Of a stretch of 64,000 bases of DNA, positions 9,304-54,180 are shown piece after piece. The position numbers and the translations under genes are program-made. Under the pieces are notes generated by a model. That model did no database searches and had not been told where the DNA came from. It saw nothing but the letters and a program-made list of their open reading frames with translations. Each line of letters begins with the position of its first letter. Position 1 is the stretch's first letter. This stretch comes from Branchiostoma floridae. Lineage: Eukaryota > Chordata > Leptocardii > Amphioxiformes > Branchiostomatidae. The DNA is taken from contig NC_049997.1 of the NCBI RefSeq assembly GCF_000003815.2, forward strand, positions 411,096-475,095. The letters run 5' to 3'.

Positions 9304-9413
9304 AACACATGGCTTGCCGGAATCTATGTGTCACGGCATCATAACCAACATTGAAAGGGGCCTTCTGATTGGTACGCGGTGCCTGGCTATATGATAATAG
9401 TCGTTATACTTAC

Positions 9414-12256
9414 TTGCGCTCCCACATGGGATAGTACGCATTCCCGTCCGACAGCCATCCGCAGTCGCACCGCTCCAGCCCGGCCTGCCAGGCCTCGTGC
9501 AGCTGGTCATAGGACGCCAGGACAGCTCCCTTCTCTGCGCATGCCTGCTGAGCTTCATCCCAGTCATACCTGTACCTGCCCTCTGGTGACGTCAGGTGGA
9601 AGAGTTTTCCTGGAACAAGACACATCGTACCTGTTACTGAATGATGCTGGATCAATGCTACGTATGAGGTCGCATTGAACCGGTAATCTTTGGGTATAAG
9701 CGGGCCCGGAAGTCACATATGTCTATGCAGCCTTCGGGATAGAAGGAAACACCTCACAGTGCTTTTTTATTCCGTTCAGTTCAGTCATCCATCTGGTGAC
9801 ACTATTTCTTAAGGTAAGTGGGTTTGTCGCAGGTTTAATTCTAACTAGGAACCGTGCCCAAAACTATCCCGGGAGCCACAGGATAGTGCAAAGCAAGAAG
9901 TAGTAAAGAAACAACTACAGCTAGCCACTACCATTTTGAAACCTTCTGCCACTAGTGACCGTTGTATAAATGGTAACACTTGTGCTTTATGTAAACAATG
10001 AACGCTTTAAAACCTCACTTTCGTAAGTTTCTGGTGATGTCATGGACATTTTCCATCGAAACTTGTTTTGTACCATGAGGTTGTATCACTTCTACACACC
10101 TTGGTTTGGCGTTGCTTTGCACAAGTCAGCTGTTAAGGTTGTCAGCTTGTCCAGCTGGTCCCGAAGAAGCCTAGACACCTGATTCTGCTGTTGGATGACA
10201 AGAGCTGAGCGGTTTTCCAGGGCCCGCAGTTGACTCTCCAAACGGGTGATAAGTGCTTGTCGGGCAACGAGGCGATCTTCAAAGGGCGTTTCTTCATTCA
10301 TTGGGCCAGGATTAAGAGCAGATTGATTGTGCAGCTCTTTTAAAACCATTTGAAACACCTGTTATTGAGAAAATAAAATGAAAAATCTGTCTCATCATCA
10401 TCATCACCAGTCACTGCATTCTACATCCACTGTATATTCTTTGGAAAGTCCTATAGATACATTAAGTCCTATAGCTAGCTGCATTGAGTTTTTCTAGTTA
10501 GTAACTTAATTCAGAGAACTGCGAACTTAAAATGAGTTTGAGAAATTTCATCAGCAGCACATTTTTGTTTCCTGTCTGCTCTATCGTTTACATTTCAGAC
10601 TGCTATGACGTAGAATTTCTACATCAGCACTGATTTATGGAATCGTGTTAAAGTGCGTCTAGATCTGTATTTCTAACATCTATGTCAGTATCCAGCGAGA
10701 ATACTAGATACAGAAAGGGAAGTGACATTTGCAAGCAAATACAAAGTGTTTTACCATAACATGGTCCAGGATAAAACGTTTTACTCAGATATATATATAT
10801 TCATATATATGGTGATCAACTCCTCCAGCTCTCTCCTGTCACTTGCTAAATTATGTGATCGACCAAAGTAGCGTTTAATGTAACAAATAGATAAATATAC
10901 CGTGTCAACATCCGGATGCGGAGTGTTGATTTGCCACACGGTTAGCGTCAGAGATGTTGTTAACATAGCCACGATGACGATCGTCTTCACAGTGGAGCCT
11001 GACGGCAGAAAATCCATTGCCCGGCTACACCATGGCCAGGTATCATTTCCACCTTCGCCGTCTGCAACAAAAGGACTATTTACAATGCGAAAACTCTTTA
11101 CCAAACCATTGTTTTCTATTGTCGTTTTCCCATTGGTAATGAACAAACTCTACCTTGAATTTTAGAAACCAAACTGATCGTAAATAGACAGACAAAGCTT
11201 GTAGAGTGATGCATTTCTTATTTCTTTTTGCTGAAAATTATTTTCTTGGGTCATGTCATGCTCCAAGTTCTACCATTTTCCGAGCTTCAATAATCATACC
11301 AACATTGTTTTGTTTACATGACACACAGTTCCAGTGAATCTGACAGAAAATGTGAACGTTTTTACGGATATCCTCGCTCAACACAAAGTAAACGTGTTAT
11401 CCACATCAACATACACACCACAAGGGCATATGCACCTTGTACATCATCCGACATTTTTTGCTCAAAACATTTGTAAATTTTTTTAATTATATTTTAACAT
11501 TTGATATCTTTGTCACGCGTCCGACTCAACTATTGCGTACCATCATTCAATCTGTATTACATAAAGTACTGAACAGGCTTTCCATAGGTGCCGCAAGTGA
11601 GATTGATGTATTCTTGGACTTTATCAGGGTCTGTCTATTTCCTGTTGTCCCTTGTGGCCCCTGTGTTCTTTCGCAATGTTTTTTTCTTCTTTCTTTTGAG
11701 GTGGGGGGAGGTTTGTTACATTGCTGTTATTATTAGCTTAAATTATGAATCCACAGTAGCGTGTGCCGTAAGCTTCTTTCTAATTAAGTAGTCACTATAC
11801 CCTCACCCTTCCCGTCTCTATTACCGATCCCTGTCTGTCGGTCTAACTAGCTAGCCATCACAATATGCCACAGCATTAATCAGAGAGAGTTTATGTGCAA
11901 AATTATGTCCGTATTTTTATATCTTTAAGTTAATAGATACGAGAAAAAAATTCCCAGTTGCCATTTCACAAATATATTGGTCAATGACCAGCGCAAGAGG
12001 TCGTTTAAATCAGGCAAAAGTCTGCAGATTCTTAAGGGTACGTTGGTTAACCAAAGGCATAGTTTATCTTTTCTTAGATCTCACCTGAACTCTCCCGGGA
12101 GCCGTACATCGGGTTAGCCTGAAGCTGGTTGATGACGTCTTTGGCATCTACTTGCTTGTCCCCAACTGATAAATTTTTCCCTTTGGTTTTGGTTTTGTGC
12201 TGACGATCATTTGGTCCACTGGTTGGAACGGATGTGTCTGGATGCCGCTGTGCCAT
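9414..12256 (-). CDS. Type II membrane protein with coiled-coil stalk and Link module, 3'-partial
   Basis: Four minus-strand exons join in phase: 12256-12085, 11061-10901, 10358-10100 and 9609-9414, giving 262 residues before the last donor. Start ATG is at 12256. Residues 1-81 are hydrophilic and Lys-rich, with an NPMY (NPxY) motif at 48-51. Residues ~82-100 (KTIVIVAMLTTSLTLTV) form one hydrophobic segment with no cleavable signal ahead of it, so a type II signal anchor is inferred. Residues ~112-198 have heptad-like Leu/Ile spacing (stalk). Residues ~198-262 carry a Link-module signature (KLFHLTSPEGRYRYDWDEAQ, CDCGWLSDGNAYYP), the fold that binds hyaluronan in CD44, TSG-6 and stabilins. The final ~35 residues of a normal Link module are absent; they may be in the gap or missed. 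NPxY suggests PTB-adaptor or clathrin-linked endocytosis. Exon identification is firm; the whole-gene join is inferred. Confidence 0.78.
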
Positions 12257-14094: not shown

Positions 14095-17000
14095 CTATTT
14101 TGAGGTCGCGCTTTTCTTGCTACATTCGTAACAGATGATGCCGACTCCAAGTCCAACTATGAATCCAACTGCAGCGCCAATACCACCTCCTGAAAGAACA
14201 TGGGGATATTTTTGATCTCATTGTTGCTTTTATTCTTCTCTCTAAATGTAATATATAAACGTGTCGGAAGATCAAAGAACAAGCAACCAGATAACCACAT
14301 GAATAGTACATTTTTTCGCCATGAGGTTAGAGTATTATATCATTCACAAAGGACAGACTTCGCGTAAGATGTCAGTCTGAGGATGACAGAAACTTTACAC
14401 ACCCATTCTACTAGAGCGGCGAGCTTGCTGAAGGATATAACGCCAATCATTCTACAGTTTTTCCTATTATGGAGTCGAGGGTTATTCAAATCTGATATAT
14501 GTTGCAGCGATGTACACTCGTTCTCATTGAAATGTCGAAAATTGCATTTTTTGGGGTCGAAGATTAAGTCGGCTTTATTTTCAGTGAAAACTACCTGGTT
14601 GTTTAGGAAAATTCCTCTTTTAACCATAACCAGAAAATGGCAACTTATTATTTTCGGTCCCATTGGTAATGCATTACAGGGCATGTAACAAACGTTACCG
14701 GTAACGTTTGTTACAACAGTAGACTTAACCCTGTTTTCTTCGAAATAACTCACCTTATTGACTACATCATTGAGGTATAAGTGGACGTCCCTAGGAACAT
14801 TTAGAAAGTGGGAAGCATTTTTACACCAGGTCAAATAGAAAGCTTAGAGAGCATCGAACAATGGTAATGTTTGATACAGTCATTTCTGTACAACATTTTG
14901 TTAAGCAAGGTGGGATGTAAATGACCGTCAACAACCCTTTCTTGTTTCTTTAGAAAGCCAGAAAAACAGTACAGCGTCACAAAAACGGCCATTTCTAGTC
15001 TTATACGTGGACAATGTAACCGTGGCAACCATAGTACTCATGGTGGTAACGTTTGTTACAGAATCTGGCGACAGACATAAACCACCTCACACAGCCTCCA
15101 AGATCAGTGACAGTAGCGATCTAACGTGATCGGTCAGAGGGCCTAGTTAGCTGGTTTCACCTACCGAACAATCATTCTTGGAACTGAATTTTTACATTTT
15201 TGGCTACTATTTGAATTCTTCGTTTCTTCTCAGGCGACAGCCATTTTTGGGGGGCGAAATTCCACCCGTGGCTATAATAATCTTCTAAGCCATTAACCAA
15301 TACGAATGTTGTTGTGCATCTTTTGTAAAACATTACAGGGGTTGAGGAAAATGAAGGAACCAGTAATTTGCTCCATATTAAGGCGTAATTAAAGTCAGGC
15401 GACAGCATTTCGACATTTAAATGAGAACGAGCCTGTAGTGTTATTTACTGGGACCTTAACGTTACATTCCGTGTTAGTAGAGACTCAATACCTGCCATTG
15501 GTTCATCACTCAACAGTAAATATGACAGCACCCACCTGCCGCGACAGATAAGGTGTGGGTCCAAGACGTGCTGTAGCCCTTCTTTGCTCTTTCGAACTCC
15601 GCTGAGGACCAATGGAATTCCCCACAGGTGGGGAATCCCGGGGGTGGGGGGTTCATCTGTCCCTGTGTCCCCTCCCTGATCATCATGGCCATCCCCTCCA
15701 CCTGATGGATCTCTATGTGACAGTGGACAAACCACCAGCCTGCATCACGGCAAAGATCATTAGCATTGTATACAATTTTGTAAAAAGATTTTGCGTGTTT
15801 TAAACAATAAGTGCGATTTTTTTCTTAGACAGTAAAGCTAAGGGCACAACCCGCCGGACGTGGAAATACATGCTGCCTACGTGTCAAAACGTGGGCAATC
15901 TTTTGGGATCCGTAAGTGGTAACTACTGCCTCCGTATTTTGAACTCGTCGGGAATCCGACGGATTGGAGCACGCAGACACGCCGTAAAATTTTACGTGCA
16001 GGCAAAACTTGTGTTGCCGTACGCGTGTTGACGTACTCCCTCCCTGCTCTTGCCATTCTTTCCCCATATTTTCATTCCCCATACGTGGCGGACATGGCCT
16101 GCCAAGAAAACGTACGGACAAAAAGGACGTACGGTGGGTTGTGCCCTTAGCTTTCTACTCTGCAGAAAGAGTTATCAAGCTTAAGTTGCAATATAGAAAT
16201 GATAAAGAATGACACTGAAAAAGACGCTAAGCATTTCCTTCCGTCTAGAATTGGTCATTCTCCACAAATTACTCGGACTCCAGGAAGAATAGTGACATAT
16301 CAGTCACTAATGGAGATCTGTATTACCAAACCAAACCAAACCGAACCAAACCAAACCAATGATGTGTACAACTAACCCACCTGGGTTATCCGCCGTAAAT
16401 CTGATGACCACGTACCCTCCCACAGGCACGATCACCGTGTCCTTCATCGGCGGGTCCCGTAGGTTCAGTCCCGGCTTGTTCCCGCCCTCCCACGACTGGT
16501 CCGCCCATCGCTTTGCGTTACACCTTTCTGACGTGCCACAGTCGATGTCAGGGTTCTGGCTACTGTAGCGACCATCGCTGCTGTTGTACTCCGGGAATCC
16601 CATATCTAACACGTAGAAGTGGTGTCCGTGGATGTGAACAGGGTGGGCTGTACCGGCAAGACCTGCTCCTGCATATGAGAAGAAATCAGCATGCAGTCTT
16701 TAACTTTATATTTAACTTGCCCAACAGGTCCTGTTTTCCAAGGTTTTCCTATCGTCTAAACGAACACAACTGTCCACTTAAATAGCCATCGGAAGACATC
16801 TTAAATAGACATCGGAATGGTTGGGTCATGTTCTGCGGTTGTCGGATGACCGTATCCCCAAAGTTGCTCTACATTGGGCCCCTGAGGGAAAAAGAAAACG
16901 GGGACGTCCTAAAAGTACATGGAGACGTACTGTGGCTAAAGACCTAGCGGCCATTGGGATCCCCTGGGATGCTGCTCAGCCCCTAGCACAGAACAGACCC

Positions 17001-20000
17001 CAGTGGAGGAAACTTATCACAGTCTTATGTCCCACATGGGATGAAGAGGATAAGTAAGTAAGTAAGTAACAGGTCCTGTTGATCAACCTATCTGGCAGCA
17101 TTATGATCCGTACATTGAGCGGGATAGCATTTCCTTGAAAGTTACTGAGAGCAGATTTCATCAAGAACTAAGCTGATCTGTTATGTGAATAAGCATTAAG
17201 GCATACGCTTGTTGGTAAGCGCTTTATTTTGTGCACGGATATATGGTCTTAAGATTGTAACACAAAAATTAAGGCTTTTCACAAGATAACAGTAACGATA
17301 GATTTCAGAAAGGCGAGACGTTTAGGTGGTACACAATACCCATCTTCAGTGAGTGAGAAAGTAATATCTGTCAATCAACAGGTTTAAACCCAAAAAATCT
17401 GAAAACCGATCAAATGCAAATATAGTGATGAAGAAGTGTCACTGAAAAGTAAAGTAACATCGACTATCATAATTCCACCAGGTGCCATAATACCGCCACC
17501 TCAAAAACGTTAGTATAGAGGTCTTCCCAAGATTATCTTGAACAACGAATGTTAAATATCCTAAATGTAATACAATTCAGATGTTACTTGTTGAAAAAGA
17601 TCTTGAGAAGGCCTCTATAACAACGTTTTTTGAGGTGGCGGTATAATGGCACCTGGTGTAATTATGCGAATATATGTTAGATACCAGCCGAACCATTTCC
17701 GAAATCTATAAAAGTCGTTTGAGTAGCTGTTATTTTTCCTGTCTGAAAATGTAAAATTTAATGAACTTTTGTATGAGTAAGTATGCAAGAAGGCCTGGAA
17801 GCACGTTTCTTTATAATTAGTTAGGTTTTGTGTCATATCCTTCTCAAAAGACTGATAAACATTCGAGTTTACCTGAGCCCATGTTGTAGAGGACCATCTG
17901 CACGACGTTGCCAGGGGTGATGGTCACGTGATAGCTACAGTCACAATACTTCTCCCCGCCGCAAAGCTCGTCGGTACATGGCACCAGACCCTTGTCACCG
18001 GTGACCTAGAGGAACGGTGTAGGGAGAGAACACTGCACTGTGGTAATTATTAGGAGGTGGCATGTTAGTTTTCTAAGCAGTTGAAATGTGTACTTTGGCA
18101 AATTTTCGCCAGTTACTAACTTTTAGTTGTCGCATAAGAGGATGAAGACCTGTTTAAAACAATGACATTGGCATTGGCAAACACTTTCAGGTCTTCAACT
18201 ATGTTAATTTGCTGAAAAAAGTCCTGATTTAACTTCTCTTGACCTCAGTACGTAACCTATGAATTGATATTTTCCAATGGTGTCATTTTCCTCCAATAAT
18301 GACCAATTGTTCTGTTGTTCCTAACGCAAGTTGTGTCTTTTCACAAACCTGTGGGGGTGACGACGGCAGAACAAACCGATGACCATTGACGGATGACCTC
18401 TGGCCTGGGTTTATATCAGACCCAGCGAAGTGGAAATTGATGAAATGTTCCTCCCACTTGTCCCCAGACTCCGACAATGGGACGGACTGGTTATCAGGGG
18501 ACCGAAGCTCGCTGACCGGCAGGCACTCGATGTGCATTGACTGGTCTCCGTACTGCCTAATAGTGTTTGAAATAAAACAAGGTTACAACCATCCATGAAC
18601 AGAGACGGTGGGCGCAATAGACGTCCTGCAACGTATGATACACTGTGTTCTATCTGCATAACGTGACGTCATGACAGCATTGGATTGTTTCTTCGAAGAT
18701 GCTATTTCAAATGTTTTGTGCAAATGGGACGTCTTTCTAATATCTTTATTCCAAACCCAGCTCTGAAAAAGCAGGCGCCTATTTATTGATTTTTAGATAT
18801 AACAAAGTTGTAACTTTTAAGTAATTTCCATATAAAGATTTCTTATCTACCTGCCAAAAATCAAATGCTGCTTGATCCGAAGCAACATATGAAAGAAACT
18901 GTCCTCTAAAGAGGACGCTATCGGCATTGTGCTTGTGTTTGTATGTTTGATAGCATATTAGTGTTTTTACTTGAACGGACAATTGACGGTAGTATCTGTA
19001 TTGTATTTGTCTGTGTGTTTCTTTGCTTGAATTATACTACATGAAGGGACAGAAGACGGTGGTACCTGTATTGTCTTTCTGTGTGTGTGTTTCTTTACTT
19101 GAATTATACTATAGGGGTGCCTAAGCATTTGCACGAACCCTATGAGATTCGTGCGAACATATGTGATACGCACGAATCACTATGCGAAACCCAAGAACCA
19201 TATGAAAATTACACGAATTACTATGCGAAAACGCACGAACCTTATGTGATTTGCACGAACCTTATGCGAATGACGTAATATATAATTTCAATATCATGTG
19301 ACCCAGCAGTGGCCGGTCGGTTTCGCATAAGGCTCGTGCCAATCGCATCAGATTCGTGCGTTTTCACATAGTGATTCGTGCGTATCACATAATGTTCGTA
19401 CGAATCTCATAGGGTTCGTGCAAATGCTTAGGCATCCCTGTACTACCTGAAGGGACAGTTGACGACGACACAGGTGTCATTCGCTGTGCAGGTTTTCCGC
19501 TGGGAGGTCGGTTCAGCGTCTGGAGCTCCTTCATAATGTAGTATAGCCTCAGTATGGTGTTGTCTGTTTACCGGCTGAGAAAAGGTTTAATTTTTGTTAG
19601 CTTCCAGTAAAGAGGTATAGTCTATCGACTTTGACCAAAGCAGATCTCAAGGATTTTTACCCCACCCCATCCAGCACTGTAACCTAAAACAAGTTGTCGT
19701 ATGACCACCAACTTTTAGAATATACTACATAAGTGACTAATAAAATTGCTTTTGCGTCTTGGTGGCGTAATGTAACGTCTCATTTTTGTGGCTAGAAAGG
19801 TCCAAATAGCCTATTCTCATTCAATTAAAAAAAATTAAAGTATTTTCAAAAAGGGTGACTAACAAAATGTAAATGTCTGCTAAATTCCAGTTGTCAATAG
19901 CAACGACAACGACGACAGACGTCATAAAATGACATGTATTAAGCTAGCCGCCATTTTGTACTCACCAAAATATATTTCTAAAAGTGCATTTTTTACAACA

Positions 20001-23000
20001 AATAACTCCAAAACACGATGGCAATAGACAAGAAATGTTTTTGAATGTTTTTTTTAGGAAAATAGCAAATAATGACAAAATTTAAGGTAAAATAATCTAA
20101 TTTTACTAGAGGTATTGATATGGTCCGCTATATAGGATTTGACCTATCGCGACAAAGGTATTAGCACTATTGATAAGTGCATAGAACGTACTCACCATAT
20201 TGTCTGCATACAGTTCGATGGTGTCCGCACGGATCCAGTAGTTACCAGGAGTCTGGTCGGTTGTGATGTAAAAATCGTACCGCTCGCCTGTGTTAATGAT
20301 GAACGACTCCGCTGTCTGCTCAACGATCCTGGTATTGAAGAATTATATGCGGTGACACTAAAAGAGTTTTAAAAAGGTACTAAACAAAACAACTCTACGC
20401 AATTCGACTACATGTGATACAGTAAGAAAATCATGGTTATTTATAGAGCAATTGCACCAGAAACAACTTAATCATGTATATTCTGATTATGCAGGAAGAC
20501 AGTACCATGACATCTGTCATGCATACAAACGAACAAACGCAGAATTCCAAATCACAAGAAAAATGTAGGACTATACCATTTTCCGATTGATTACAACCTA
20601 TCAAATTATTCTTTCAAAAGGTATCATATGAAATATCCAACTATTCTCGAATGATTAGCAAGAAAAGAGGAGAAATAAATGATAGGGGACGGATACAGAC
20701 ATACAGATAACGATAGAGCCACTAGCATAACTCATGCGTCACTAAGTCAAACGGTTAAAACATAGATGTTTGCAGATAGTTAATATAAAGACTTAAAAGA
20801 AAAGGGATAATTGGTAGCAAAGAAGGTTTCCTAGCTTTCCCAGGTTTCAAATTATTGTTATGCTTTAGTCAGTAGGCAGATTAAGTAGATAACTGTCATT
20901 CAATGAAACATAAATACAATCAGTCTTAAAAACATGTTTCAAAAGGGGCATATACTGATGACAATTTCTGAGCTACGTTTTACCTACCTGTCTCCATCCG
21001 TGGCGATCAAGGTCAACTCGTGCTGGTCCACGGACACCCGGAAGGGAAACATCATGGCGGCGCTGATGACCCGGAAGCGATACGTCATGTTCCCCTCCAC
21101 ACTGAACTTTTCCAGAGGCACGAACCTATTCTCCGCATTGTCGTTGTCGTCATAGCTACGACCTGACAACATCGTGACGTAAATCACAGATACATGGTTC
21201 TTTCAATGCAAGTCAAATTTGAAGAATTACGTAACACAGAATAAAATTAGTAACTAAATCTAAAGAACTAATAGAATGAATTCATGTAAATGAAAATAAG
21301 TATAGAAAAAAAAATTATGCCTGTAGAACAGTTCCTGACATACCTGCGAGATTTGGAGAATTCTTGTCAAACTATACTATTAGGCTCGCCCTTAATGCGT
21401 TGCCAAAAAATAAACTTAACAAATCTGACCGTTCAACTGATAAGCAGTCTTTTGGGGGCGAATAACAGGCAGAAAATGACAAATACCCCAACTTGTCACT
21501 TTGATTTTAAAAACACACCAGAATTCACATCCATGTCTATCATTCCTAACAGAAAATTGAACCTTCAAAGCAACTAAAAGAATTCAAACAGAGAAATCAT
21601 GCATAGCCCCTATGTATTTAGCTTGAGGTCCATGTTCAAGGTTCTTTACGGGCCTTACATTTTGAATTACAACAACAAATTCATCATAACGGCATATGCG
21701 CACTAGAAATCAGGAACTGGCTTATCACCTTTTCCGTTGATGAGGCCTGAGGTAAAATGGACCGGTCCCAGGTCCGTGCCGTCAGCCTGTGTTAGTCTCT
21801 TCCTACACGTATTGGTGTCTCCATAGCCGTGAGAAAACCTGCGGAAACAAATACAACCCGGGTGAGGAGGCAGGCATGTAGCTTCGTAGATGACGTTTAA
21901 GCACTTTAGTTTAAAAGGTTTTGGAATGTTCTTAAGTAATCGGGCTCAGTAAACTAACAATGAATGCTACAATCATCATATTTCTAAACCAGGGTCCGGC
22001 CAAGCAGTTGTTAGGAACGAAACGTAAAATATAAGAAACATGGTTTAAAAGTTGGTGTCCTTTATGTTTTAATCAAACGCTAGTTTTAGAATATAATCGG
22101 CTTAACAATATATCAAAGATATTTAGTGTTTTACATTACTTCACCAACAGAGATGTTCTATCTTAAGAAAAAAATCGCTATTCACACGCGCCGCCTCGCC
22201 AGTGCACCACTCAAACTGATATGCAAATCGTGAACTCAAACCATTTTAACTTAACTTAAATGTCCGACGACAATAATTTTTGGCCATCATGAGACTATTT
22301 TCTCTATTTTGTTAGTCACCTGGTTGCCTCCCACTCCACACGCAGGTACGTGTCCAGTGAGTCCTCTCTCTGCCAGTCGTGCAGCAGCATCAGAAACTCC
22401 TGATGAAATACTGGCAGGGGCGGCTGAGAGGATTAAAGAAAACATTGTTGGCATCTATCAGAGAACAATCACAGGCAGACAGTTACTCGCCGTCTGTCTG
22501 ACCTGCACACAACTTTTTAAGGTGAATGAGGGTTTAACAATTCCTTCTCCACTCTCTCGTCTACTGTCACACTACGTCCCATAGGGACAAGAACTACATG
22601 TCACATGTAAGAACGCCCCAGCATATGCATGTTTGTTGTTTGAAATTTCCGTCTCCTAGGAGGGCACAAGATAAATGATACGGCAGGATTCGAACTCAGG
22701 ACCTCTTGGGTCTGAGCCCAATTCGCTGCCGATTGCGCCACTCAAGATCTCACCTAAGAAAACATTATATTATAGGAGTGAGTACGATTTAAGAGTTGGA
22801 CACAGGGTAAACTTGTTGGTAATGTATTCCAAGACGCTTTGAAAATATGAAGGGGATCACACAAGTACACTAACCCTATCGCTAACGCAAAGATACACAC
22901 CGTCCTATAAATAAAAACCGTGGCCTAGATAGGGTTAAGGTTCGTTCCTTGGAATAAGATTATACCATGAACCTCCTTGGTCTATCCATTGCGTGCCATT

Positions 23001-26000
23001 GGTGTCCCTAAGGTGCCTTTTTAATCTGTTTTTTATGTAACAGACATTGTAATTCATTCTATTGTGTTTGGCACTCATAGACAAAGACATTAATTGACAG
23101 TATCAATGCTCTATCTATGAATACGTAGAAATTGTTTATGTCAAAAGGCTTCGACTCCAATCTGATTATTTCAAAGTCACTGATCCCAGACATGAAGAAA
23201 AATGACGTCTTAATGTCTATATCAATATCATTCAACCATTTACGTTCCAACCACAGACACGTGAGATCGCGTGACGTAATCGACAGCGCGTTGGGCTCAC
23301 AACCAAGAAGTTCCAAGTTCGAATCCTGTCGTGTCACCGATCTCGTACTCTTGGGAAAAGCACTTTACTTTACTTTTACTGTCACTTTCACCATAAGCTG
23401 CCACTCACTGCAATAAGCATATATCTGTTAACTGTCAATGTATGTTAGCGCGCTCCATCCATTTAAGTGAATTAGCATGCTTTGTTCACACCGTGATCTT
23501 TTAAACCTAGTCAGGGTTTGCGTCTTTGAACTCCGATTCCGAACCTAGATGATGAACTTTATTTGTCATTTAAATACAAATAAACTTTGTTTTTTAATCA
23601 TTTACTATTTATCGTAATATTTGTAATTGAAATGTTGCTTAGGACACGTTTTTGTAGACTAGTTTATTCATTAGTTTCACAAATACAGAAATGACACGAC
23701 ATAAAAGCAATCATGCAGCCAAGGCAGTCTTCAATGGTACAGAGCGTCTTTAGAGCACAGTTTAGTCGTAAACTATAGTGCGTTTGTAGTGTTCAAAAAT
23801 AAAGGGACTGGGCTAGTAAGGTACCGCTTAGTACCAGCTGGCAGTTTGTGGAGACAACTATGCCTGAGCTGCGTGCATGATGTATGGCTGGTTACGAGCT
23901 GGGGACAGCTAAGGGGCATATCCTGCAGATTTGAAGACAGAAAGGGCAAAGTCCTTGCACAGGGACAGTCTGTGTTCTGTTAGGAGCCCCCCTCCCCCTC
24001 CCCCTCCCCTAAAGTTGTAAAACGCTTGGGGATGGCACCTAGCTTTCGACGACCGTTCATGCACATCAAGGAAAGCAAAGATATGCACATACTGGTTACA
24101 TTACCGCAATACTTCAAAGGTAAAAACATATCTTCAATGCCTTTAAGATGGGTATTAACAGCCACCGTAAAGCCGGCTTTACAATTCATGCGGACGCCGG
24201 CCGAATTTGTAGCTCGGTCAGAGCTCGCCGAATGTCAACATCGCCCGAGTATCGGCTGTATTTTTCGCTGAAAATCTGCCCCCTTTACAAATGGACGGAG
24301 CCCGTCCGACGTCCGTCCAACACAACTGATTATAATTTGTTAATGAGATTGTACTTTGTCTTGAAGATGGACGAAGTCAGAACTGAATAACCTTGTAAAA
24401 AGCCAATATTTGTGTCAAATTTAATTTCTGAGTTGCGGGATAAATGCAGGACATGAGTAGAGTGGACGGGCACACTAAAAACAATAATATCAACAGGAAT
24501 GTTGTGATACACCAATCCGAAAACTACCACAAGAGCCATAAAGTGAACAGACCAGTCTTATTCAACATAATACAATAATTTTGACGTTGCGGAAATCGGG
24601 CGAACCTCGGGCAAACCTTGGTCGAACCTCGAGCGAAGGCCGGCAAAGGCTCGTTCGAGTTTCAGACTGGAAACCTTCAGACATGAAGAATATATGATCT
24701 CACACATCCAAACCTATAGCAAAAAAAATAAATAGGAAGTGCTGTCTTCGTGTCCAATTCCCTTACATTATAAGAGGTACGCAGCTTTCTTAGAAAAGTT
24801 CATACAGTAGTCTTTATTTATCTTATATTTCGGAACAAACTGTTTACTAAAGATGAAAGCCCAAAACAAAGACACGTATTCAACACAGGTGTCAAATTGA
24901 TTAGGTGATAGTTAAAATTCTGCCGGAGCCCTCCCAAGCTCCCAGCGACACCAGCACAACGCTCGCCCAAAGCACGCCAAACACGTTAAAAGTCCGACGG
25001 AATATCGTCCGGTTATTGCAGGAAGCCCGAACGAGTCTGGCGCGAGGCAGAAGACTCCGGGCAAACTCCGACCGAAAAAGAGAGAGTCAAAAACCGTCAA
25101 AATATCGGCCGAGGCCCGCATAATCGCCAAAACGCCGGTCATACTCCGGCCGAAAATGTCCATTTGGAGCTCGCCAACAACTCGGCCGAGCTAAATTCTT
25201 GATTTGTAAAGGGGGCTTAATCACAACCTTTGACGAAGTGTCGTTCTCCAGTACTATAAGCGCCCCGTACAGTCCGTCCGTTCTGAAGGTGCCCAGGTGG
25301 GCGTGCCACCAGTGGGTACCCCCTTCAGACGCAGTGAACCTGGGGGGTGGGGACAAAAGCATTGGTCTATTCTAATTAAAACGTAAGTTTTGATATTACA
25401 CGAAATGTACAGAAGGGTTATTTCCTGTTAGTTACTGGTCAATGGTATCCACTCACACATGTGGGGTCCTCTTGTTTGTTTGAAATACGCCCCTGTGAAT
25501 AAAGTTCTCGTCCAGATTGATACAAAGTAATGGTTAATGTTAATAACACATATGTAAGCTTTTATCCTGGTCGACATCAACTGCTGGTTAACTGGTGGTT
25601 TCATTTGGTGGACCAGGCGTTATCACACTATTAACCCTTAACCATTTACACACATACCTATAAGTAAAGCTTTTCCCAGGACTCATATAGGACTCTGTGA
25701 CACGCTGCCCACCCCGTCCATCCCGTGTGTTTGTGTGTGTGCTTGTGTGTACGCACCTGTAAGTAAAGCTCTCCCCAGGACTGATAGGACACTGTGACAC
25801 GCTGCCCACCCCGTCCATCCAGGGTGTGTTGTGCTGGGTGATACCATGCCAGTGGATCGCCACGCCTTCCTGTATCAGTTTGTTCGTCACAGTAACAGCG
25901 ACCTGGGTGGGAAGGGAACAAGATAAAAACCCGTCTTAGGGTTAGGCTCGTCCCTGAGGGCGTTTGGTGACTGGCACTGAGTGTGTTTGGTGAGTATTGT

Positions 26001-32229: not shown

Positions 32230-35200
32230 ATGTCTACGGCAAAGGAGATAGAAAACGAAAGTGCATTTGTCGGTAAGAACAATGTCTTTTTAATTCACCC
32301 TGTATCCCAATGGATCAAATAATGATACCCCCTTACAGTTTCTGTTTATTTAACGAACCAAGATTGTTTGTACATAATAATAAAAGAGACAGTTTACACA
32401 TTTACATTAATCTGAGTTGGTAAATTTCATTATATGAAATCTAAACTGAAGACTAAAAAATGAATTTTCGACTGAGTTCCTCAGTTGCTTTAACTGCATG
32501 GCACAGTCACTCTGGACAAGCGACTTTTTTATGTGTGACGTCAGCAATCGGTCAAAGGTTGTTGATATTGAAAAGTCGTGTAAATAAAACTGTTACATTT
32601 CAGCACCTTCAGACGTTTCCAAGCGAAACTCCAAAGACATAGACCTCTCTGCTGCACTTGCGTCCATTCAACTTACAGGGAAGGAGCGGACAGCTTCATT
32701 GGAATCTGGATACGCAACTGGTAAACACAATGTACTTATATAAGTTATGATACACTCCCTTTTTAAGCAAATTATCAACCCCTCTGTCACAAGATGGACC
32801 GACGATATTGTTCCGATGTTGCTCTTTTAATCCATGAAAGCTCTAAATCTACAGAGCAGGGCCACACACTGCCAACCTCTCTGTCTCCTCACCCCCTACT
32901 GCCCAGTCATGCGCAGTAGGCCTTGGGGATGCCTAAAACTATTACAGTGACTCTGTCACACCCTCATTAAGTGTACATACGTTGCGTTTAGTAACGCATT
33001 TATAAGCAGCGGCACCTGTGTGTAGTTCAATGTGAACCAATCAGAATTGTCCTGCGGAAGGTGACAGACTGTCACTAAAATGTCAATTGATTGAAATACT
33101 TTCTTGTGTACACACTCACTAATATAATTTGAGTTATCAAAATTGCATCGAGGTGTTTAAAATTTGCTTGTCCTTAGAATTCTTGCAGAGTGAATCCCGT
33201 TGCCACCAAATGCTCAAGGGTCTTCCTCATAGTAAATTTTGATGTTAGATGTGCAACGTTTAGGTGTTATAGGTCATTTAGAGTAACAACAAAATAGATT
33301 AATCCATAAGTAACTTTATTCTTCATCCTATTTATATACATTGAAGTAAGGTTCTCTATGCACAACCAGGGGGTACTTACTTCTGTAGCGCCACCTACGT
33401 CGGCTTTAAGTAGCAGCAAGAAGTAGTTTCCAGTTATTCTACCCTGATGATGGTGTCTGAAAGACATCGAAACGTTGGAAGTAAGTGCTCCCTTGCTGTG
33501 CCAAAAGAACCTCACTATAAAAATATTAGGTACATAATCTTCTTCTGCACCAGAAAGCTCCAGTCGCCCCACCAGTGGCTTTGATTTTGACGGAGCGCCC
33601 CAGCCCTCTTCCGGCCCGACAGTGCTCAGCGCATCGAGCTCCGGCAACTCCACTCAACCCACCATCAACTACTTCACTGTGCAGATAACGGGAACAGCAA
33701 CCAACGTGCAAATTGGGTCTAACAACATCATGGACATTACCAAAGCTAAGGGTGACAAGAGGATGGTGCCACTTTCAGAGGGTAATAACGTTAGAAATAT
33801 AATATGTCAGTCTATTATTAAGCAAAGCCATATCTACACAATTTAAGGGGCAATTTATTATCTGTAAGGAAAAATCCATGCCGTTAGTGCTGTAATTATT
33901 TTATTCACTTTGTTTGATGCAACATTTCCCACGGAGATAACAAGACATATAACACATCTTCAAATTCTGGACTTTACGTTATAGACGTTAAAGACACATG
34001 GCCAAAGCAATAAAAATACATGACCACAGCAATAAAGATACATGACCACAGCAATAAAGATACATGAACACAGCAATAAAGATACATGATCACAGCAATA
34101 AAGATACATGACCACAGCAATAAAGATATATGACCACAGCAACGGGTCGTAAAATCCAGATAATCTGTGTCGTTCCCCGTCTCTGCTTGAATCGGATGGC
34201 GGGCTCGAATCCAAACTGATTCCAAATCATTGCATCATCATCATGATTATTCCAATTGCTTGTTCCGTAAAGTTCAGTCCTCTTGCATAATATTATTTAC
34301 CAAGACAAATGATCTTTCGAGCTAACCAATAACAGCTATTGTACAGATTTCATAGCGACCCTCGTCTCAGTTCACGATCCGGCGGGGGAGGAGCTGATGT
34401 TCCGGCGGCTGGCTGACGAGTCGTACCGGCGGGAGTACGTCAGGAGGATGAGGGAGCAGGACGTGCCGAGCACTATCGCGGAGGTCGGGCGGGGATGCAT
34501 ATTCCTCAACCTACAGGTAGAGAATGGATGTTACTGCACCTTACTGGGTATTATCCCCACAGTTCAGGTCCTGGTTCAAATTAGTTGTAACTGGAAGACG
34601 CCGGATTGGATCAATGGTAAGGGCATCTCGATTGAGACTAAAACCGTCTTACAGAAGATATGTAACAAAGGGGTCCCTTGTTCGAGTACCTCGGGCACCT
34701 TTAGACTAGCAACCCTTCCATCTAAAATTATACATAAACAGCATGGAAACTTAGTGATTTATATGGTACCAGAGTCTTCAATGTAAACAACAACAATATG
34801 TACAGGACTCCACTGCACATCCTATAGTACTTTTCGCAACTATACATCATCATCATCACCTGGGCTTGCTGGTTGCACGAATGAACATGACTCTCTAGAT
34901 CTCCCCCATCCATCCCTATCCTCAATCCAAACCATAGAAAAAAGATAAAACTACTTAGACTAGTGTTAACAAAAAGGGATGGGGTAATTTTGAATGTTGT
35001 ATCTTATGTACTGTTCGTTATCTATTTGAATTTATATCTTTTATTGTGAAAACAAGTTAGTAAGAAAACCTAGAAATATCGTCATTCGACCTGTCCTGGT
35101 CTTTGGAAGGCAGCTCAACATTTAAGGTAGACATACAAATAGATTGGTTGATGACACACAAAACATAATAATGTTATATCTTGTATTGGTTTTATAAAAT

Positions 35201-36933
35201 AGTAACTCTCTGACTATGCCCACTGGGCCTCATCTTACTCAATCTCCAGGTGGAAACCCCTGCGGCTGCGCAGAAGCTGCTGGAGATGTGCCGCGACGGA
35301 AGTTACCAGCGGATCCTGATGGAGACATTCCTGCCTGAGTACGTCACTTCCGGGAAACCCATGGAGATGAGTCTGGCCGTGTCGGTGAAGACCCCGGATG
35401 TCCCACCAGTTCGGGTGACCATAGTGGAGGAAAGTGAGACCGGTAAATGGCTTTGTAAAAACACATTTACAACGTTGCAACTTGTAGAAATATCTAGAAA
35501 TCAACACTGAGATTGCTTAGGTAAACGATTTCTAGAAAATGACTGAGTGAGTGGGTTACAATCAAATTAGTGCGTGAGTGAGTGAGTGAGTACGTGAGTG
35601 AGAGTGAGTGAGTGCGTGAGTGAGTAATTTTTGAGTACGCGAGTGGTGAGTAAGTGAATCATTGAAAGTGACTGAGTGAGTGAGTGTAGAGCAAATGAGT
35701 ATTGGGTGATTAGCTATTAGGTAGTTTATAAAGATTGAGTGGTAATTGAGTGACAGTGTGAGTAGCTGTGACTAAGTGGGAGAGTGAGTGTGTGAGGGAT
35801 TAGAGATAGAGTGAGTAATTTTGTAGTGCGTATTGAGTGGGATATGAGTGAGAAATGAGTGAGTGTGTAATGTATGTAAATAGCTTGATGGGCGGGTACG
35901 TCAATGGTTTCAAAGCATGGGTATGAATATGACTTTGTTGAAAACCTAGACCCACAGGACAAAGTTACGGTCAAGACTGACCAGCTACAAGCGGTGAAGA
36001 CATTATCTGACAGCCGGAACTCAGACGGAATCTCCTCAGTGGATGTCCCCGTCCCTGGTACATCCACCACCCGAGCCAAGTCACCTCAGCTGCAGCGGCT
36101 TGTAGCTACTGAGGGCCGGCCGAGACAGACCAGCTCTGACTCTGGTCTGGGCTCTGCTGACTGGGACACTGACGGTGAGATACGAGCAAATATCATGGTT
36201 ACTCCAAATTTTTTACAAGCAATGACTGTTTTCAAAGGCAAGGTACATACCTCCAAATTTTCGACAGCTGACAGTCCATTTTGTTCACGGAGAATGACCT
36301 AGTTTCGATCTCGCGAGGTCTGGGTTGCGTAGATTATCTGCCCCCTCCCCTCGCCTCCTTGCGGAGTAGGGGTAGGTAGAACTTGGGCAGCTCTCCACAA
36401 AATATCATGGTATATTTCAGCAGAGATGTAACTCGCCTAGACAAAAAATGTTATATTGTTTAGGTATTTTCATTTAGGCTTTCTTGAAGTTTATTTGCAA
36501 AAAACTATGCTATTTGAAACAATTACATTGCATCAAGTAGGTAAATGCCTAAATAGAAATGTTCCTTATTCACAACAGGTACATATATTAGAAAGATTTA
36601 ACAGGCAAAGATTCGGCGACAGTCTGTTATCTTTCTCAGGTTTACTTTGCACCTTCACTGCTGGCAAATACAAATGGGCATTTGTGCATATGACTAAATT
36701 TCAGTTTGACAGTTCAGTAGAAAATGGCAAATTATCAGTCAAAAACAAAACAACAATTAAAAGAACATCCTGCAGTCGCTGATTAGCAAGGCTGAAATAT
36801 TAGGTTTGACGTCATGAAATTTTCATTTGAAAATGGTTATCATTTCACTTCATTTACAGAAGAGACTTCTCGATTCAAGTTCCCTGTCAAGCCGAACACT
36901 TCCAGACAAGCACAGAAGAAGCCGCCATTGTAG
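32230..36933 (+). CDS. RHIM-containing adaptor with TRADD-N-like region
   Basis: Seven exons in continuous phase: 32230-32272, 32604-32720, 33554-33781, 34347-34516, 35250-35442, 35950-36174, 36860-36933 (TAG); 349 residues. Ser-rich residues ~15-90 precede a RHIM whose core VQIGSNNIM is at 105-113, matching the (I/V)Q(I/V/L)GxxNxM core of RIPK1, RIPK3, TRIF and ZBP1, which assemble as functional amyloid. Residues ~130-240 follow a strand-helix-strand pattern with GCIFLNLQVETPAAAQKLLE and MCRDGSYQRILMETFLPEYV, resembling the TRADD N-terminal fold; this is an inference by pattern, not alignment. The C-terminal region is disordered and holds DSGLGS at 314-319, a DSGxxS beta-TrCP-type motif. No kinase, death domain or membrane span is seen. 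Likely role: cytosolic adaptor in cell-death or NF-kB-like signalling. ATG choice: first in-frame Met after a plausible acceptor; the exon structure fits the whole length. Confidence 0.85.
33347..33527 (+). mobile_element. Inverted-repeat element with hammerhead-like fold (family C copy 1)
   Basis: The ends are inverted (TAAGGTTCTCTATGCACAAC on the left; GTGCCAAAAGAACCTCACTA on the right), and the next inner segments GTACTTACTTC and GAAGTAAGTGC also pair. The centre holds CTGATGA at 33444-33450, a 7-bp hairpin with GAA loop, and GAAAC at 33469-33473. It lies in an intron of the RHIM gene in sense orientation. A second, rearranged copy is at 47558-47861. Confidence 0.7.
33996..34141. repeat. 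22-bp tandem repeat, about 6.6 units
   Basis: Head-to-tail units of ACATGACCACAGCAATAAAG plus AT, with single-base variants, in the RHIM intron between exons 33781 and 34347. Each unit contains an AATAAA-like hexamer (CAATAAAG), so the intron has several cryptic poly(A)-like signals. Confidence 0.92.
35556..35875. repeat. Degenerate (TGAG)n tract
   Basis: Irregular runs of GAGTGAGTGAGT with frequent interruptions extend across most of the RHIM intron that ends at exon 35950. Many potential GTGAGT donor-like hexamers result. Confidence 0.85.
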
Positions 36934-51968: not shown

Positions 51969-52400
51969 AGGGGTACGGTTCAAAAAGTACCTTAAAAGGT
52001 TTAAGGAAGTTTTTATACCAAGAATAAACATAGATAACAAACTGAAAAATATAATTTGTTTTTAGAGACACTTGTCGACCTGTTGAAATGTTTTCTGAAG
52101 TCGTTTACAAATACAACTAGAGTTCAACGAATCCATCTCTTCGCCAAATAATCATGCCTTTATTTAAGACTTTAAGGTCTTATTCATGTATTACTAAATA
52201 GCAAATGACTGCATGAACTGTGTTCCTCACATGCAAACACACAAACATTACCAAAACCAGACTGTGACCTGACAGATGACCTGGTAGCATCCCTGGTCAA
52301 TCAGAATTTCATGCTTGTCAATTTAGACTTTGTCCCCAGTGTAAGGGCGTCCTCCAGCAAACCATCTGTATAACAGCTGTGTCCATAGATATAGGTCAAA

Positions 52401-54180
52401 ATGAGATATATAGAGCACAGTTTATTTCTGTTAATATCTAAATACAATTACACTAACAAACGCCTGTATGCATGCTTCGTAGATTTTAAAAAAGCATTTG
52501 ACAGTGTCTGGCGGGAAGGTCTTCGTTATAAATTACTGAACTCAGGAATAGGCGGAAAATTGTACAGTGTAATAAAATCCATGTATAGCAACCCACAAAC
52601 ATGTGTTAAAACGCCAGCTGGTCTGACACCCCTATTCACAACAGACAGAGGCGTAAGGCAGGGGTGTAACCTCAGCCCTGCCCTTTTCAATTTATTCATA
52701 AATGACCTGGTAAAAGATTTAGACAGCCCTGACTGTGCCCCACCCTCCCTGCATAATCTACTTGTATCCTCCCTGCTATATGCTGACGACGTAGTGTTGT
52801 TTTCAGAATCTGAAACAGGTTTACAATGCGCTCTGGATAAACTCCATGCATTTTGCGAGAAATGGAAACTTCAGGTGAACCTAAAGAAAACCAAAGTTAT
52901 GATTTTCAACAAACTCGGACGAATCTTCAAAAACATGAATTTTACTTTCGGTAAAGATACTATAGATATTGCAACCTCCTATTCTTACTTAGGCCTGACG
53001 TTATCCCCCTCAGGTACCTATTCTCTAGCAAAGAAACAACTGTCCTTGAAAGCACGCAAAGCCATTTTCAGTCTGAAATCCCTGATGCATTCATCTCTGT
53101 CTCCAAAGGCTCTGCTCAAACTATTTAGTACATGTATCAAACCTATTATATTATATGGTTGTGAGATTTGGGGTAAAGCTTATTCAGATGACAGTTGCCC
53201 AGCAGAAATTACACAGAACCGTTTTTGTAAAAATGTTCTCGGTGTACATAGAAATTCAAGTAACATAGCTAGTAGAGCAGAGCTTGGAATGTACCCAATA
53301 GACATAGATATATCCATACGTACAGTTAAGTATTGGCTGCGCCTCAAACAGTTGGACTTCTCAACACATCCCTTACAAGTAGACGCTTTACTCTGTCAGC
53401 AATCTATACCGAATAACAGCCGTAAGAAATACTGGTTACAACACGTAAAGGAAATTCTAGACAATACTGGTTACTCTTACCTATGGAACTCTATGAATTC
53501 ACAGCTAGACAATAAGCATATATGTACATCGTTAAGAAAAAGGTTAGAAGATATATATATCCAGACATTTTCTCATAGACTGTCCACAGATAATGGTAAG
53601 TTAAGATTTTTCAAGAAACTAAAGAAGGGATACTCAATGGAAACTTATTTAACGTTACTAGATAAATTCGAGGTCAGATCGGCAATGTGCAAACTTAGAA
53701 TTAGCGCCCACCCCCTTGAAATTGAGAGAGGGCGGTACAAAAAGCTACCTGTGGGCGAAAGAACCTGTAACCATTGTATGGCAAAACCGGTGGAAGACGA
53801 AATACATTTTATTTCTAACTGCCTCTCTAACGATCAGGAAAGAAAGGAGTTATTTGAAGAGGCATGCAAATTCCACAAAAATTTCCAAACGCTTACCGAC
53901 GAAAACAAAACTATAACGCTGTTAACGTCACATAACCCACGCATCATAGAAAAAGTGGGACACTTCGTCTTCCACTGCTTCCAGAAAAGAAGTCAAACCC
54001 TAAATACGTAGATTGTAGCTCTCAGCAGTCCATACCATTGATAGAATAGTCACTCGTTTACACTTGTCACCATTGTTATCTATACCAAAGTATTTCATTT
54101 TATACATGTTTATTATATTCTCTGTATGTTTCATGTTGCAATTAGCCCTCGGGCAAGAACTTGCAAATAAACTTCAATAA
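52401..54180 (+). mobile_element. 5'-truncated non-LTR retrotransposon (LINE) with reverse transcriptase ORF
   Basis: An open frame of 536 residues (52401-54011) encodes most of an RT: FVDFKKAFDSVW (motif A), RGVRQGCNLSPALFNLFIND (motif B), YADDVVLF (catalytic YADD), LKKTKVMIF (motif D/E region). A CNHCMAKPVEDEIHFISNC zinc-knuckle-like block lies near the C-terminus. There is no endonuclease and no start of the RT fingers upstream, so the copy is truncated. The 3' part ends at about 54180 near GCAAATAAACTTCAATAAG. The frame is uninterrupted, suggesting a fairly recent insertion. The clade was not determined; the RT/zinc-knuckle pattern suits CR1/L2/Jockey-like groups. Confidence 0.9.

Follow-up and report, generated by a model that had tools for sequence, protein, structure and literature searches.

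The window, a 64,000-nucleotide stretch of the lancelet genome (C19:411096-475095), carries on its plus strand a gene of seven exons at positions 32230-36933. With GT-AG introns and consistent phases, the exons join into one open frame of 346 amino acids, from a start ATG at 32230 to a TAG stop ending at 36933; the coordinates that an earlier note on this DNA gave for the joined gene were exact. Exon 1 (32230-32272) supplies the start codon and residues 1-14 and is the same in two copies of the gene, L062 and L063, and exon 2 (32604-32720) encodes residues 15-53. Exon 3 (33554-33781; residues 54-129, phase 1-1) bears a RHIM. It is followed by exon 4 (34356-34516; residues 130-183), which contains the first helix and the first half of a TRADD-N-like domain, including G176-C177, and by exon 5 (35250-35442; residues 184-247), which contains the second half; the segments GCIFLNLQ and MCRDGSYQRILMETF correspond to residues 176-183 and 196-210. 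Exon 6 (35950-36174; residues 248-322) encodes a weakly constrained tail, and exon 7 (36860-36933) encodes residues 323-346 and the stop codon. These assignments follow the spliced frame and comparison with the copies. Tandem repeats, a 22-base unit repeated seven times and an AGTG-like run, lie in introns at 33989-34142 and 35569-35686. Elsewhere, the window contains an extracellular link domain exon (9413-9712, minus strand), multicopper oxidase exons (15513-25935, minus strand) and a reverse transcriptase frame (52395-54008, plus strand).

The whole genome (513 Mb in 431 contigs), the sole eukaryote sequence collection compared, was searched with the window protein. This search revealed three near copies (L061, L062 and L063) and a fragment (L064) on C19, as well as four diverged loci (L065, L066, L067 and L068), which we refer to by their contigs as C135, C148, C11 and C235. 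What had been described as one single protein is instead one member of a family that counts eight loci or more, plus a fragment. Among Pfam matches of the window protein with E up to 10, we found no kinase, Z-DNA, TIR or Death domain, in agreement with the earlier note; neither the kinase domain of the RIPKs nor the C-terminal Death domain of classical TRADD is represented. The sole match of the protein or its domain was a weak one to cyclophilin (E 0.019-0.16).

Such a protein could act as a decoy or brake, which would co-assemble through its RHIM and cap or dilute the filaments of effector-bearing relatives and of RIPK1. The lack of an effector domain in the Pfam search is in keeping with this, as are the several near copies on one contig and a possible phosphodegron, DSGLGS (36138-36155, plus strand; residues 311-316, exon 6). 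This motif, which resembles the beta-TrCP phosphodegron of IkB proteins, is unchanged between the window and four further copies on C19, in a tail that otherwise shows weak constraint. However, the TRADD-N-like region, for which a decoy acting by RHIM alone would have no use, appears constrained: between the window and L062, the one comparison made, dN/dS is 0.17 over residues 130-247 (6 replacement and 11 silent changes). By the same measure, residues 1-53 come to 0.66 (2 and 1), the RHIM exon to 0.71 (7 and 3) and the tail to 0.91 (16 and 6). We consider the decoy or brake unlikely, yet worth keeping in mind.

The identity of the domain was assessed by profile comparison. Alignment A1 comprised six sequences (the window, the near copy L062 and the four diverged loci), and alignment A2 comprised 16 TRADD-like_N sequences from the same genome, 14 of which score above the PF20694 cut-off. 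Eleven A2 sequences derive from the 13 loci of one fetch, excluding the near-duplicate L075 and the low-complexity L080, and five from the 30 loci of another, in which a C17-type group and others were left out by choice. With hhalign, A1 and A2 matched with a probability of 91.4%, an E-value of 9.1e-7 and a score of 40.5, compared with at most 19.1 for 200 column-shuffled versions and 11.5 for the reversed profile. The window sequence alone scored 29.9 (62%, E 7.5e-5), and for A1 and a set of five more remote TRADD-like rows the score was 25.6 (probability 24%). The earlier note had placed the TRADD-N region at approximately residues 130-240; a core within it is aligned with TRADD-like_N, but the alignment is restricted to residues 166-213, with the flanking helix and last strand less certain.

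PF20694 itself (gathering score 23.7) did not match the window protein or its domain. It was matched by four of the six family members, the diverged relatives (best E 0.0018), which scored 18.5, 17.7, 12.4 and 12.3 bits, all under 23.7; for three of them it was the first-ranked Pfam family and for one the third. The TRADD-N signature described in PMC8195603 pairs a tiny residue with Ser (or Cys) at the turn between beta2 and beta3. In the window protein this turn holds G176-C177, and both residues are unchanged across all six A1 sequences. The profile-profile similarity, the sub-threshold matches of the relatives and the turn support homology of the window domain to TRADD-like_N at the profile level.

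The tie is to the invertebrate TRADD-like_N family; the one with vertebrate TRADD is weak. A further alignment, A5, combined five family members with seven A2 rows. When a joint profile was searched against the PDB, the human TRADD-N chains 1F2H and 1F3V ranked second and fifth among 15, aligned in register, with E about 0.3 (0.29 for 1F2H), amid unrelated chains scoring alike. The C135 domain used as a query reached two PF20694 loci on C13 (E 0.18 and 2.0); its other weak matches lie at C15:14620585-14620701 (E 0.05), C19:13703409-13703591 (E 0.02) and C19:13685728-13685910 (E 0.14). Genome-wide, TRADD-like_N gave 98 matches (E up to 10), 50 of them in a single 600 kb array at C17:18.30-18.90 Mb, with more clusters on C215 and C13. 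The RHIM pattern was not found within 1.5 kb of the 30 TRADD-like_N loci that were fetched among these 98.

For comparison with the RRM-like, four-stranded fold of TRADD-N, structures were predicted without an alignment for contiguous window stretches, with the two half-domains apart, and the inputs included one intron-read residue for exon 4 and eight for exon 5. Models of the exon-5 half showed a strand, a broken helix and two more strands (pLDDT 80 for the best and 55-73 for the remaining four), and the exon-4 half was modeled as helices only, even where strands were expected (pLDDT 76). In the fold comparison, which covered one half-domain modeled in this way, no TRADD chain was among the matches. 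These results, together with the weak cyclophilin match and the fact that no family member reaches a Pfam cut-off over the domain, would fit another small alpha/beta fold that resembles TRADD-N. Against this stand the hhalign score, more than any of the 200 shuffles produced, the high rank of PF20694 among the diverged relatives and the in-register human chains, even at their E-values of about 0.3. A different fold is in our view improbable.

The near copies also bear on whether the gene belongs to a recent, non-functional duplicate cluster. Across aligned segments they are 73-99% identical, and between the window and the copies the exons with short flanks are 90-100% identical. A fifth, partial copy on C19 (L064, 1877-8678) contains an in-frame stop and large assembly gaps. 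The exon borders of the window gene, however, recur in L061, L062 and L063 wherever the assembly has the exon, and the readable exons keep an open frame; exon 1 of L061 and exon 4 of L063 are missing from the assembly, the remaining splice dinucleotides are all AG/GT, and L062 is a complete copy free of stops. With the low dN/dS of the domain in addition, a cluster without function is very unlikely.

The RHIM segment, VQITGTATN-VQIG-SNNIMDI (33679-33738, plus strand), was examined by pattern scan, PF12721 and a PDB profile search. Its core tetrad VQIG (residues 105-108; window positions 33706-33717) conforms to the definition (V/I)Q(V/I/L/C)G given in PMC9444067, and VQIGSNNIM (residues 105-113), the core named in the earlier note, to the extended pattern [IV]Q[ILV]GxxNx[MLI] given in PMC9440496. 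A six-frame scan of the window gave a single match to [VI]Q[VILC]G..N.[ML], compared with a mean of 0.05 in 60 Markov-simulated windows, three of which contained one. The looser core [VI]Q[VILC]G carries no evidential weight, since it was seen 5 times against 5.1 expected. The 20 residues around the RHIM are the same in the window and its three near copies.

The window segment scored 16.1 bits against PF12721, under the gathering score of 20, and eight of the nine 20-residue family RHIM segments matched this family (best E 3.2e-5). A profile of nine family motifs, chosen by the tetrad and in one case by eye, matched RIPK1 (E 4.8e-5) and RIPK3 (E 1.1e-3) in the PDB; because the motifs were chosen by the tetrad, the core match is partly built in. 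Nine of its ten PDB matches (E up to 10) were RIPK1 or RIPK3, five of the ten under E 0.01, and the tenth, a ribonucleotide-reductase-like chain, belongs to an entry in which RIPK3 is also present. A genome-wide PF12721 scan, which is independent of any motif choice, scored 32 candidates and gave seven matches (E 0.23-9.3), none significant singly. The top three lie in C135, C148 and C11, as do five of the seven in total; C135 (21.0 bits, E 0.23) and C148 (20.2 bits, E 0.42) exceed the cut-off of 20, and the seven do not include the window RHIM. Although the sub-threshold PF12721 score and the absence of strong constraint on the exon overall (0.71, from ten changes) would suit a chance string within a disordered linker, the expectation of 0.05 per window, the RHIM-like motifs that the four diverged loci carry at the corresponding position, the concentration of the top genome-wide matches in family loci and the RIPK1/RIPK3 matches make that explanation scarcely credible.

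The four diverged loci are 30-36% identical to the window over the domain, and all four carry RHIM-like motifs upstream of it on the same strand. Together they contain seven pattern matches, against 0.025 expected per 9.9 kb strand: two each in C135, C148 and C11, and one in C235, where a second, imperfect motif was recognized by eye. The RHIM exon and the domain exon meet at a phase-1 junction in the window, C135, C148 and C11, and joining the exons into gene models confirmed it for C135 and C148; the C148 donor at the joined exons is a weaker GTTAGC. At C235 the reading frame changes within the domain region, and this locus may be damaged or wrongly assembled.

The architectures of C135 and C148 are gene models, in which phase-1 exons were joined without a stop. 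In the C135 model, RHIM-RHIM-TRADD-N continues in frame into a RING, a B-box and NHL repeats, as in a TRIM-NHL ligase, and zero methionines occur between the splice site and the RING. The C148 model (L066 3708-9507) runs in frame from RHIM-RHIM-TRADD-N through linkers to a Death-like exon of 17.6 bits, under the Death cut-off of 22.6; a second Death exon (37.4 bits) lies further downstream on the same strand, outside the joined model. In this gene model the relative, unlike the window gene, has a Death-like exon. TRADD and RIPK1 features occur together in the C148 gene. At C11, a same-strand downstream exon matches the DUF294 nucleotidyltransferase (23.4 bits, cut-off 21), outside any joined model, and repeat-rich exons lie downstream of RHIM-RHIM-TRADD-N beside this match (L067 5-3637, minus strand).

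Given these features, we propose, with a probability of roughly 60%, that the window gene, presumably transcribed, codes for a soluble adaptor working in a pathway of innate immunity or cell death. Most probably it is an adaptor without an effector, belonging to a RHIM/TRADD-N signaling family in which the RHIM occupies the usual site of a death-effector domain. Through its RHIM it would assemble into amyloid, both with its own kind and with other RHIM proteins, and so be recruited to a filamentous platform, and its TRADD-N-like domain, by analogy with published TRADD-N, would bind a partner through the sheet face and the conserved G-C turn. Because the tail holds no recognized effector, the C19 branch may act as a bridge or brake. 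The diverged relatives seem to bear effectors in the same chain (a TRIM-NHL ligase, a Death-like domain and perhaps a nucleotidyltransferase), and mixed RHIM filaments could therefore unite several outputs. More tentatively, and at somewhat less than even odds, the lancelet may possess a modular amyloid system in which a constant RHIM and TRADD-N unit carries interchangeable outputs (TRIM-NHL ligase, Death domain or nucleotidyltransferase) or none, its members co-polymerizing with one another and with RIPK1. If so, one polypeptide would unite RIPK1's RHIM with TRADD's TRADD-N, two modules that vertebrates carry in separate proteins.

RHIM adaptors without a kinase are exemplified by TRIF and ZBP1. 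The window protein resembles these two, described as such in PMC9444067, but the TIR and Z-DNA domains were not found in it. With RIPK1, including the lancelet RIPK1 reported to have a RHIM tetrad and a death domain (PMC12119088), the family shares the RHIM core and, in C148, a Death-like exon; the window protein differs in lacking a kinase and having a TRADD-N-like domain. A SMART-based account finds the RHIM in vertebrate RIPKs only (PMC9573974), which counts against our assignment. Vertebrate TRADD likewise shares the TRADD-N-like domain and the Death-like exon of C148, whereas the window gene has a RHIM and no Death domain was found in it. The proposal of RHIM and TRADD-N in one chordate protein is supported, with a weak direct sequence tie to TRADD. 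Titles and abstract openings in the literature yielded no report of such a fusion, and the word RHIM is absent from the main text of PMC8195603, whose supplementary tables may list family proteins. What we describe appears, from sequence, to be a pairing of two known modules in one gene family, for which we found no earlier description.

The closest parallel is offered by the invertebrate DEDD2/NCOA6-clade TRADD-N proteins (Kaur et al. 2021, PMC8195603), which share the TRADD-N-like domain with its uS/uC turn, a lancelet expansion, and the position of the domain, flanked by a homotypic-interaction module on one side and a variable C-terminus on the other; that source describes TRADD-N beside homotypic-interaction domains, with variable C-termini. 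The difference lies in the module, which in the window family is a RHIM. Published TRADD-N proteins adjoin death-fold or similar domains, whereas the neighbor here is an amyloid motif. The family thus offers a directly testable link, beyond the vertebrates, from necroptosis-type amyloid signaling to the TRADD adaptor fold, and its members are candidates for an earlier-chordate wiring of TRADD and RIPK1 functions.
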